This document shows positions 20,328 through 22,954 of a stretch of DNA of 64,000 nt, one piece after another. Both the position numbers and the translations under genes were made by a program. The notes beneath the pieces are model-generated. The model was not told where the DNA came from. It ran no database searches and saw only the letters and a list, made by a program, of their open reading frames with translations. Each line of letters opens with the position of its first letter. The first letter of the stretch is position 1. Source of the stretch: Parvibaculum sp. (GTDB taxonomy: Bacteria > Pseudomonadota > Alphaproteobacteria > Parvibaculales > Parvibaculaceae). The DNA is taken from NCBI GenBank assembly GCA_030645235.1, contig JAUSMV010000012.1, positions 434,001 through 498,000 on the forward strand, written 5' to 3'.

Positions 20328-20349
20328 GGCTTTCGCCTTTTCTTAAAGT

Positions 20350-20430
20350 CCTCTACCGCTTGCGGGAGAGGCGGAGGTGGAATGGAAATTAGTCCGGTGG
20401 ACTAATTTCCCGCCGACGGGTGAGGGTCTT
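20350..20430. repeat. Palindromic intergenic repeat with 12-bp perfect stem
   Basis: GGAAATTAGTCC (20384-20395) and GGACTAATTTCC (20399-20410) are perfectly complementary around three bases; CTCTACCGCTTGCGGGAGAG lies just before. The arrangement (gagaggcggaggtgg..palindrome..cccgccgacgggtgaggg) looks like a dispersed intergenic element. It marks the left border between the glycosyltransferase gene and the AT-rich retron island. Confidence 0.6.
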
Positions 20431-20567
20431 TCTTTCTGCTTTTGTGATTGCTGGACTTGATCGGTAACCCATCTCTGAACCTGTGGGTACATTAAGTATG
20501 TTGCTGTTAGAGTTGCTACAACATCTTGTAAGGTTCAAAAATTTAGTTCACCTACAGCGAATTTATA

Positions 20568-20596
20568 TTGACAATGAGAGGTGCGCTCTCTAAATT
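20568..20596 (+). promoter_or_regulatory. Sigma-70 promoter of the retron, with palindrome in the spacer
   Basis: TTGACA (20568-20573), a 17-base spacer and TAAATT (20591-20596): a near-consensus promoter, predicting transcription from about 20603. The spacer contains GAGAG-gtgcg-CTCTC (20576-20590), a possible operator for a dimeric repressor such as the XRE-type protein encoded in the same operon. Confidence 0.7.
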
Positions 20597-20602
20597 TTCT
20601 TT

Positions 20603-20797
20603 ACGCTTGGTGGAACATCATGCCTCTCAGCTGGACGACGAAATTCGTCCTAGGGGTTCGAAAGAACCCTCCATTTCTTGGGCGCATGCGTGTGGCTTCT
20701 TATGCACGCACTGTCTCTCAGGTTAAGCGAGTATCGGAAGGCTTCGATACTCGCTGGGGTGCTTAGAAGTTCTTCCGCTCGAGATGTCCTTTCTCGA
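20603..20797 (+). ncRNA. Candidate retron msr-msd non-coding RNA
   Basis: The leader between the promoter and the first coding gene folds into a series of hairpins. Putative msr: GGACGA..TCGTCC (20633-20650) and GGGTTC-GAAA-GAACCC (20654-20669, a GNRA-type loop). Putative msd: TGCGTG..CACGCA (20687-20710) and an 11-bp perfect stem AGCGAGTATCG..CGATACTCGCT (20726-20755). A possible a1/a2 pairing joins 20608-20619 with 20766-20777 (two mismatches, two G-U). An AGC before the first hairpin could supply the branching guanosine. Position directly upstream of a retron-type RT is where msr-msd is expected. Boundaries and the priming G are inferred. Confidence 0.6.
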
Positions 20798-20858
20798 AGG
20801 CGCCGGTTCATGCCGCAATCTTGGATTTTCCGAGTTGGGTTAGGCCGGTGAGAAAGGA
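20787..20858 (+). promoter_or_regulatory. Shine-Dalgarno-sequestering helix with a competing hairpin
   Basis: TCCTTTCTC (20787-20795) is a perfect nine-base complement of GAGAAAGGA (20850-20858), which holds the Shine-Dalgarno of the 55-residue protein. Just inside, CGCCGG (20801-20806) can pair with CCGGTG (20845-20850), extending the helix. The anti-SD strand overlaps another stem, TCGAGA (779-784 of 20 kb) with TCTCGA (20792-20797), so the two folds exclude each other: one hides the SD, the other frees it. The element directly follows the putative a2 of the retron RNA. The complementarity is directly visible; the switching role is inference. Confidence 0.55.
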
Positions 20859-20864
20859 ATGGTT

Positions 20865-21032
20865 ATGTCGCTTCTGACTGACCCCCCAAGCGTTGCGCGG
20901 AAGTTTGTTGGGCTCTGGAATCGGGTGCGTGGATTTTTCCGCAAACTTGTAACTAGGCGGACGTTGCTGATTGCTATCAAGGCCATTTATTGGATGGCTA
21001 AGATTTTGGCGCTTCTGAAAAATTTTGTCTGA
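20865..21032 (+). CDS. Small cationic hydrophobic protein, candidate retron effector
   Basis: 55 residues (57 if the in-frame ATG at 20859 is used); AAGGA lies six bases before the ATG at 20865. Eleven Lys/Arg and one Asp give a net charge near +10. Residues 10-30 are an amphipathic basic/aromatic stretch (VARKFVGLWNRVRGFFRKLV) and 34-55 a hydrophobic segment broken by lysines (LLIAIKAIYWMAKILALL). This resembles membrane-disrupting type I toxins and cationic pore-forming peptides. It lies between the retron RNA and the HTH-RT genes, all co-directional. No family is recognised; toxicity is inferred from composition and context. Confidence 0.6.
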   Translation: MSLLTDPPSVARKFVGLWNRVRGFFRKLVTRRTLLIAIKAIYWMAKILALLKNFV

Positions 21033-21080: not shown

Positions 21081-21401
21081 ATGTACCATCGCGCATTAAA
21101 ATTAATCCGCCAATATCATCGGCTTTCGCAAGTGGAGCTTGCTGCTTCGCTTGGGCTATCGAAGTCTTTCATTTCGGAAATCGAAAAACAGGATGGAAAA
21201 AGGCCAAGCATCGATGTTTTGGAGCGGTATGCTTCTTATTTTCAAATACCTCTATCTTCGTTGTTGTTGTTTGCCGAAGAGACGGAGGCCGAAGGTTTTA
21301 ATGATCGAGCACGTATTTATGCGGTTGGGAAGGTTTTGAAGATGCTTGAATGGATTGAAGAAACCACAAAGCCGGAACATTCGTCAGAGACTGTCGAATG
21401 A
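21081..21401 (+). CDS. XRE-type HTH protein of the retron operon
   Basis: 106 residues, strong SD (GAAGGAAAG). Residues ~8-62 are an HTH_3/XRE domain: QYHRLSQVELAASLGLSKSF, SEIEKQDGKRPSIDVLERYA. The remaining 40 residues are helical and acidic with no known enzymatic motif. The stop overlaps the RT start (ATGA), so the two proteins are translationally coupled. HTH-associated retrons are a recognised class (type VI in the Mestre scheme, as I recall it). It may repress the promoter at 20568 through its spacer palindrome, or bind msDNA. Confidence 0.85.
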   Translation: MYHRALKLIRQYHRLSQVELAASLGLSKSFISEIEKQDGKRPSIDVLERYASYFQIPLSSLLLFAEETEAEGFNDRARIYAVGKVLKMLEWIEETTKPEHSSETVE

Positions 21402-22342
21402 CAAATGGTCGTCCAAAGAATCAAAAAAAATCGGACAATTATTTGTTCGCCATTGATTCGAAAAAAGATTTGGCTAGGAGATTATCTACGAAACATTTTT
21501 CTATTAGTGAAGATGAATTAGACGCACTCGCGGGTGACACAGGTAATTTCAAACTCTTTCCTAAGACGATTAAGGGCAAGGTGCGCGAAATTCAGGAGCC
21601 GAAGCGTGCTCTGCAACGCTTACATGTTCGCGTTCATAAAATACTCTCTCGGTTGGAGGCTCCGGAGTATTTGCATTCGACCGTTCGTGGGCGCTCTTAC
21701 CTTTCGAACGCGTCAGCACACAGAGGTGATGTGCCTGTTGTGAAGATCGATGTAAAAAAATATTTTGCATCTGTCCCGCGTGTTGCCGTTTTTAAATTTT
21801 TCTTAGAAGTGATGCGCTGCAGGCGAGATGTAGCAGGGTTGCTTGCTAACATGTTGACGTTCGATAAACATCTGGCGACTGGCAGTAGTGCTAGTCCTAT
21901 CTTGGCATACTACGTATTTCAAGGGATGTTTGATGAGATAGAAAAATTGGCGACATCCAAAGGTCTTACAATGACCTGCTATGTTGATGACATTACGTTA
22001 AGCGGCGCGGGCGCTAATCGTGGTGTGCTTAACGACGTGCGTAAAATAATTGCTCGTTACGGCCTTCGTTCGCACAAGATGTGCAAATTTGAAGCGATGC
22101 AGCCAAAAGTGATAACTGGGGTTTGTAACTCTTCTACTGGTAAGCGCGTACCAAATAGTTTGCATTTGAAAATTGCTGATGGGTTTAAAGAGCTAAAGGA
22201 ACTGCGTGCTTACGAAAATGCAGAAACTGTTTTGAAGCCGTTGCTTGGCAGGCTTGAAGCGGCGGGACAAATTGATCCAGCGTTTCGTGATCAAGCGAGA
22301 ACGCTGCGTACGCAGTTCAAAGCAGGTAGTTGGGTTTTTTAA
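21398..22342 (+). CDS. Retron-type reverse transcriptase
   Basis: 314 residues. RT motifs in order: KGKVREIQEPKRALQRLHV (RT1-like), VVKIDVKKYFASV with the first catalytic Asp (~residue 116), GSSASPILAYYVF, the catalytic box YVDD at residues 195-198, and KVITGVCNSS. Two retron-specific signatures are present: NASAH at residues 104-108 (region X, NAxxH) and ITG at 239-241 (region Y, VTG-like). YVDD replaces the commoner YADD. No maturase or endonuclease domain follows, so group II intron and DGR origins are unlikely. Codon usage and GC are lower than in neighbours, indicating transfer. The product should be msDNA made from the upstream RNA. Confidence 0.93.
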   Translation: MTNGRPKNQKKSDNYLFAIDSKKDLARRLSTKHFSISEDELDALAGDTGNFKLFPKTIKGKVREIQEPKRALQRLHVRVHKILSRLEAPEYLHSTVRGRSYLSNASAHRGDVPVVKIDVKKYFASVPRVAVFKFFLEVMRCRRDVAGLLANMLTFDKHLATGSSASPILAYYVFQGMFDEIEKLATSKGLTMTCYVDDITLSGAGANRGVLNDVRKIIARYGLRSHKMCKFEAMQPKVITGVCNSSTGKRVPNSLHLKIADGFKELKELRAYENAETVLKPLLGRLEAAGQIDPAFRDQARTLRTQFKAGSWVF

Positions 22343-22492: not shown

Positions 22493-22954
22493 TCAGGGAC
22501 AAGGAGCACTCAGGTAGTGAGTTAATAGCGCACCTGCGATGGCACCAACTAAAGCACTTGCCGCGCCAATTGTGCCGGAAATTTTAGTGGTTTTATTTGA
22601 TAAAGATTCTACACGTGCCACTTCGCGTCGGTCTTGTTCAGCTTGTGCTAGTGCAATCTTATTACGCGTATGAGTGTTTGTAGCATTTAAGGTTTCTCGC
22701 ATCACAAGAAACAAATGCAGTTCGTATTCAGAAACACTCTTCATTCGCTCTAGAGCTATTTCTACTTCGGCTTCAGAACTGAAGTTTGTCTTAGCGGCAA
22801 TATCGTCTATTTTCACTTTCTGCCTCGCTTGCGTTGCGTATTTTAAAACAGGCACTAGAAAGTCTTCTGAGAAGAGAAAAATATTAGGAATTGTCGTACT
22901 TAAGGCGCTTCTAAAACCCGAACATATGATCCAGGCAGAAGCTTTCATCGCCAT
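22493..22954 (-). CDS. Uncharacterised protein with C-terminal membrane anchor
   Basis: Up to 153 residues. The first ~33 codons overlap the 3' end of the upstream gene in another frame, so a start at the GTG at 22855 (about 120 residues) is possible. The middle is helical and charged (SEAEVEIALERMKSVSEYEL, TRNKIALAQAEQDRREVARV) and the C-terminus is one membrane helix rich in Gly/Ala (TIGAASALVGAIAGALLTHYL). AT-rich like the retron, which lies 150 bases away tail-to-tail. No family recognised; it may be part of the same acquired island. Confidence 0.55.
   Translation of the reverse strand: MAMKASAWIICSGFRSALSTTIPNIFLFSEDFLVPVLKYATQARQKVKIDDIAAKTNFSSEAEVEIALERMKSVSEYELHLFLVMRETLNATNTHTRNKIALAQAEQDRREVARVESLSNKTTKISGTIGAASALVGAIAGALLTHYLSAPCP

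Follow-up and report, generated by a model that had tools for sequence, protein, structure and literature searches.

The 64 kb stretch of DNA analysed here (the window) carries a type VI retron with the order ncRNA, small ORF, HTH_VI and RT_VI, as typed with PADLOC. The alignment of the reverse transcriptase (RT) contains YVDD, and the HTH_VI gene adjoins the RT gene, overlapping its start. The small ORF gave no match up to E 0.1 in PADLOC, Pfam or NCBIfam, and no relative was found in viral contigs searched by sequence with the small protein. Similar small ORFs precede the HTH gene in relatives; in the 35 loci compared below, the small proteins have 33-67 aa and a charge of +2 to +14. Judging from the sequence, ATG 20865, which lies 6 nt from the Shine-Dalgarno (SD) sequence, is a likelier start in the window than ATG 20859, which touches it. 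Downstream of the RT gene, a 153 aa ORF on the minus strand (22493-22954) reached a best E of 0.027, below the model's cut-off.

Table 1 Features of the retron locus, in positions of the window.
Feature	Position	Strand	Basis or remark
Probable HTH operator	20547..20561	.	TTCAC-N5-GCGAA; one mismatch to the consensus TTCGC-N5-GCGAA
Probable promoter	20568..20596	+	TTGACA 20568-20573, TAAATT 20591-20596, spacing 17 nt; read from the sequence
Probable retron ncRNA (msr-msd), approximate borders	20603..20786	+	Strong upstream fold
Hairpin nearest upstream of the SD lock, taken as msd hairpin	20726..20755	+	Automatic hairpin call
GAAGGC at the tip of the msd hairpin	20737..20742	+	Same word as the lock bulge
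Alternative hairpin, SD-open	20779..20797	+	TCGAGA 20779-20784 / TCTCGA 20792-20797; not conserved in the family
Anti-SD arm of the lock	20787..20795	+	TCCTTTCTC
One-sided bulge of the lock, GAAGGC, proposed msDNA target	20796..20801	+	6 nt
Inner stem-loop of the lock	20802..20849	+	Folding
SD strand of the lock	20850..20858	+	GAGAAAGGA
Small cationic ORF, hydrophobic C-terminal part, proposed toxin	20859..21032	+	57 aa; 55 aa from ATG 20865
HTH protein of type VI retrons	21081..21401	+	PADLOC HTH_VI, E 2.3e-30; Pfam HTH_3
Retron reverse transcriptase, type VI	21398..22342	+	PADLOC RT_VI, E 9.8e-75, 249 bits; next model 118 bits

A palindrome, TTCGC-N5-GCGAA, recurs upstream with at most two mismatches in 31 of the 35 loci (19 exact) and in 1/35 shuffled regions, a count made in the same loci from which the consensus was derived. 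It is often followed by TTGAC, and we take it as the probable operator of the HTH protein. The half-site resembles GCGA, a word found in the msd loop of 10/30 loci. Just upstream of the retron, the intergenic stretch 20340-20440 appears palindromic and repeat-like by eye.

The region 20580-20900 folds with a z of -5.39, and none of 100 shuffles was equally stable. The upstream RNA gave no score reaching the Rfam gathering threshold, and an a1/a2 helix sought by complementarity did not exceed those of mismatched loci (p 0.31). The position of a2 could not be settled, and the placement given in the sequence-only reading of this DNA, in which the anti-SD strand of the SD-hiding hairpin (the lock) follows the retron RNA immediately, is therefore tentative. 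The hairpin nearest upstream of the lock was assumed to belong to the msd. Close to the probable start of the transcript, ACGCTTGG (20603-20610) is the exact complement of CCAAGCGT (20886-20893) inside the small ORF; the two are paired in the MFE fold, a possible long-range closure.

The nine-base helix between TCCTTTCTC and GAGAAAGGA, which the sequence-only reading had proposed to cover the SD of the small protein, was confirmed. Each arm occurs once on the plus strand of the 64 kb, and the nine pairs have probabilities of 0.72-0.99 in the predicted transcript 20605-20900. The hairpin folds at -33.2 kcal/mol, against -19.9 +- 4.4 for shuffles, 0/15 of which were as stable. The helix does not continue directly into the CGCCGG/CCGGTG extension suggested earlier; past a 6 nt bulge, 20802-20808 instead pairs with 20843-20849.

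For comparison, the RT was used to find related loci in whole genomes, plasmids, phages, viral contigs and E. coli genomes; one archaeal locus was recovered and left unused. The 44 loci with a small ORF and an HTH gene were folded at their assigned starts (two of them, in L081 and L086, shifted following a first round of folding), and 35 distinct ones were tested, nine near-duplicates being left out (L048, L064-L068, L070, L072 and L083). Earlier exclusions were L042 (cut at the record start), L049 (no HTH match), L056, L057 and L092 (other ORFs, weak HTH match), further loci without an HTH match and further duplicates. The family tests took ATG 20859 as the start in the window, whose SD-pairing score is thus that of a shifted hexamer; the word-occupancy test used ATG 20865. 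L056 and L057 are RT_VI-like and have a longer, different ORF (read as 168 and 137 aa) before a weakly matching HTH gene, possibly an exchange of effectors.

Of 40 genomes from the taxonomic order of the window, 2 yielded relatives. Further searches led back to loci already in the collection, and scans of viral contigs with single RTs gave either nothing or, in one case, 17 loci of an enterobacterial clade. DNA resembling the version in a Klebsiella P2-like phage, a type VI retron of P2-like prophages, occurs in 99 of 5,426 complete E. coli genomes, at 100 places, all of them chromosomal.

Across the 35 loci, the mean paired probability of the SD was 0.77, compared with 0.55 when the upstream sequence was shuffled (p 1e-8), 0.66 at the HTH starts (p 0.007) and 0.56 at 34 RT starts (p 3e-5). 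It exceeded 0.8 at 17/35 SDs, 7/35 HTH starts and 5/34 RT starts. Mean hairpin energy was -22.1 kcal/mol, against -13.9 for shuffled sequence (p 3e-9) and -9.7 at HTH starts. Of the 525 shuffles, 70 reached the stability of their own locus, and in 14/35 loci none of the 15 did; the hairpins of L038 and L071 were no more stable than shuffles, and those of L032, L035, L037, L045 and L074 hardly more so. With pairing and stability above those of shuffles, the lock is stable and a feature of the family. Its plan is an outer stem that includes the SD, a bulge of 5-9 nt on the 5' side and then an inner stem. In six loci (L024, L035, L039, L050, L052 and L054) the loop of the inner stem starts with AAT followed by pyrimidines, as seen by eye.

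Many pair types occur at every position of the outer stem. Swapping arms between loci lowered outer-stem pairing from 6.0 to 2.6 of 6 (28 loci), a result that describes rather than proves, the arms having been selected by folding. In the enterobacterial clade the outer stem is invariant and hence shows no covariation. Its inner stems have three pairs changed on both sides, which 52/500 shuffles reach, and a covariation score of 0.174, reached by 2/500; further pair types were not above shuffles.

The second, SD-open fold is real in the window: the TCGAGA/TCTCGA hairpin and the lock are mutually exclusive, as had been claimed. Folded by itself, the stretch 20775-20858 reaches -33.5 kcal/mol in the open form, nearly equal to the -33.2 of the closed hairpin 20787-20858 alone. 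In transcripts ended at tested points from 20797 to 20854, the six alternative pairs have a mean probability of 0.86-0.96, which drops to 0.01 once the SD strand is complete; in the transcript 20605-20900 it stays at about 0.01, and forcing the hairpin costs 4.3-6.1 kcal/mol. These properties in isolation and before the SD strand is transcribed are what one would expect if the anti-SD arm alternated between the SD and this hairpin, with retron activity or infection selecting the fold. Two of the six bases of the bulge are also part of this hairpin; msDNA would therefore be its competitor and, once bound, would hinder the SD-open fold as well. We regard such a switch as very improbable, given its probability in the longer transcript and the outcome in the family. 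There, hairpins joining the anti-SD arm or the bulge to upstream sequence showed no excess (mean -7.7 vs -8.1 kcal/mol for shuffled sequence, p = 0.74, 35 loci), and in 2/35 loci at most 1/30 shuffles was as stable. Some loci have an SD-open hairpin (the window and the enterobacterial prophage group), not above chance, and a conserved two-state RNA switch through the anti-SD arm was discarded for the family.

The bulge of the lock shares its sequence with the apical loop of the nearest hairpin upstream, the probable msd, and loop and bulge vary together from locus to locus. The window has GAAGGC at both sites. Elsewhere the matching words are TGCTAACG (L044), TCGGATGC (L012), CGATGGCG (L037), AGACGACC (L075), TGGCGTGA (L053), ACGAGGC (L009), CCGAAAGGA (L081) and GGGAAGGCCC (L024). 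The window alone is weak evidence, as mismatched pairs reach 6 nt in 5.7% of cases; the case rests on the family. Loop and bulge were called automatically and the match was not used in calling, but the idea itself came by eye from the same loci, which are therefore not an independent test set.

In 30 loci, the longest word common to loop and bulge averaged 6.0 nt within loci and 3.6 across them, and the observed mean was reached by 0/100,000 permutations. Words of at least 5 nt were found in 24 loci (15% across loci) and of at least 6 nt in 18 (5.7%). This test left out L008, L032, L038, L055 and L079, in which no bulge was called; with these restored, 26/35 loci had a word of at least 5 nt, against 14.5% of mismatched pairs. 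When each cluster of 50% RT identity was represented by one locus, the figure was 17/22 against 13%, and for bare bulges 17/22 against 6.7%. The match is confined in position: along the upstream RNA, at least 6 nt were shared at the msd loop in 18/30 loci and in 0-3 loci beyond 6 nt from the loop centre, and on the lock side the match peaked 15 nt from the 5' end, the bulge region. With the match limited to these two sites, a duplicated msd hairpin was judged an unlikely origin of the repeat. A structure-free version was weaker (6.6 vs 5.7; at least 8 nt in 10/35 loci vs 4.5%), still beyond 20,000 permutations.

Nine loci fell below 5 nt in the 35-locus test (L003, L008, L031, L032, L035, L038, L052, L074 and L085). 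By eye, matches missed by the automatic caller can be seen in L031 (GGTGGA), L085 (GCGAGAG), L038 (CGAGGC) and L074 (TGTGG), and L052 matches in 5/6 positions; L003, L008, L032 and L035 remain weak. In the 17-locus enterobacterial clade, GGGCGA occupies both the msd loop and the bulge in every variant extracted (the incomplete L103 gave none).

Direct RNA-RNA pairing of msd loop and bulge was considered and rejected. In the reverse-complement control the mean was near chance (3.5 vs 3.2), at least 5 nt were reached in 5/30 loci (6.9% across loci), and the upstream profile was flat, with at least 6 nt in 0-2/30 loci. Identical RNA words do not pair with one another, but reverse transcription of the first yields a DNA complementary to the second, which makes msDNA the candidate partner. 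Being the complement of the msd, the msDNA would carry in its loop an antisense to the messenger of the proposed toxin. The earlier link between the lock and msDNA thus gains support in a different form, through a bulge that equals the probable msd loop and co-varies with it, and loses the SD-open switch in which it had been cast.

A protein could read such a repeat too. If the RT or another retron protein bound the same RNA word in the msd loop and the SD hairpin, its docking would repress translation, and loop and bulge would be expected to be the same RNA sequence, as they are, rather than complements; the GCGA of some msd loops (10/30) would fit a binding site. The words nevertheless differ widely between loci while matching within them, also in loops without GCGA, where 14/20 loci share at least 5 nt against 9.7%. 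Moreover, L045 has AATGG and L071 GATGG in both places, so that two loci whose RTs are 89% identical changed the same base twice. We consider protein docking unlikely. Unrelated words that are identical within loci are, in a comparison of sequences like this one, the mark of a base-pairing partner.

Sequestration of the SD is significant by itself, and the lock could simply limit a toxic small protein, much like the leaders of type I toxins, while the repeat serves some other role, for example in template switching by the RT. That account leaves the co-variation of bulge and msd loop unexplained, and we give it little credence.

Pairing of msDNA with the bulge could in principle act in either direction. 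When the matched word was treated as occupied, SD closure was unchanged or rose in 20/24 loci and fell in 4/24 (mean 0.74 to 0.76), which makes repression likelier than activation, weakly so. With only the bulge blocked, closure rose in 24/29 loci, a rise that is partly built in and was left out of the judgement on direction. Were msDNA instead to open the hairpin and switch translation on, the four loci with lower closure would be accounted for, as would matched words that extend into the stems (10 nt in L024). The other 20 loci speak against this, as does the effector held back by msDNA in other retrons (per an excerpt of PMC12948488); activation seems improbable to us.

We think it probable that type VI retrons are a natural antisense-DNA system, in which the msDNA loop pairs with the messenger of a protein encoded in the same transcript. 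That the retron is a toxin-antitoxin module, with an antisense-DNA antitoxin keeping translation of the small protein off, we hold to be slightly favoured by the sequence comparisons. At that comparative level the operon, the SD hairpin, the co-variation of loop and bulge and the operator palindrome are established. A single transcript would comprise the msr-msd RNA, the SD-hiding hairpin, a small cationic and probably membrane-active protein, the HTH protein and the RT. The RT would copy the msd into msDNA with a hairpin loop complementary to the lock bulge, and this msDNA, probably with the RT attached, would pair with the bulge and hold the SD in the closed state. Bound msDNA may in addition recruit RNase H, with cleavage of the msDNA-messenger hybrid as a possible further step. 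A phage that destroys, modifies or titrates the msDNA would release synthesis of the small protein, and the infected cell would stop growing; the HTH protein would probably repress the promoter. We infer that msDNA is made at this locus, that it pairs with the messenger and represses by pairing, that the small protein is toxic and that phage infection relieves the repression. At 5-8 nt the matched words offer little length for stable pairing, which counts against the antisense reading.

If the antisense reading is true, the equality of msd loop and lock bulge tells what the msDNA is for, and the target can be predicted from sequence. The retron would then be a compact, reprogrammable antisense-DNA device occurring naturally, and natural antisense DNA would be a new mode of regulation, even in an element of known retron type.

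Type VI retrons, a type defined in a 2020 classification that PMC8541194 cites, are described in excerpts of the latter as having genes for an RT, a DNA-binding protein and a small auxiliary protein; the same excerpts give their gene layout in phages. The locus in the window agrees with them in having RT_VI, HTH_VI and a small ORF within one operon, and differs in the SD lock, the loop-bulge rule and the operator, which are absent from those excerpts. In the literature searched (titles and openings of abstracts, few subscription papers, and without the defining 2020 paper), we found no mechanism for type VI and no natural antisense msDNA. For the tripartite retrons Ec86 and Ec83, an excerpt of PMC12948488 describes how msDNA and RT hold an effector in check as long as no phage interferes with them. 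In those retrons msDNA binds the effector protein itself, whereas the target proposed here is the effector's messenger, reached by base pairing.

Engineered antisense sequences in the msDNA loop have been reported to regulate or silence genes (PMC4569332 and PMC6868368, in excerpt), among them one against an outer-membrane lipoprotein (Mao 1995, as cited in those excerpts). As far as these excerpts go, the antisense is likewise carried by msDNA and aimed near the translation start of the messenger. Those constructs are man-made, whereas the type VI case would be natural and self-directed. The use of msDNA as antisense is thus an old idea; what is new here is a natural target with co-variation.

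The arrangement also has a counterpart among toxin-antitoxin systems, in a small cationic protein and an SD-hiding leader. Type I systems combine a small toxic protein, cationic or hydrophobic and usually membrane-active, with a structured leader that hides the SD and with antisense control. The antisense proposed for the retron is reverse-transcribed DNA. Because the candidate antitoxin is msDNA and not an antisense RNA, we do not file the retron as type I; if the proposal is true, type VI retrons are the DNA counterpart of type I antisense RNA.
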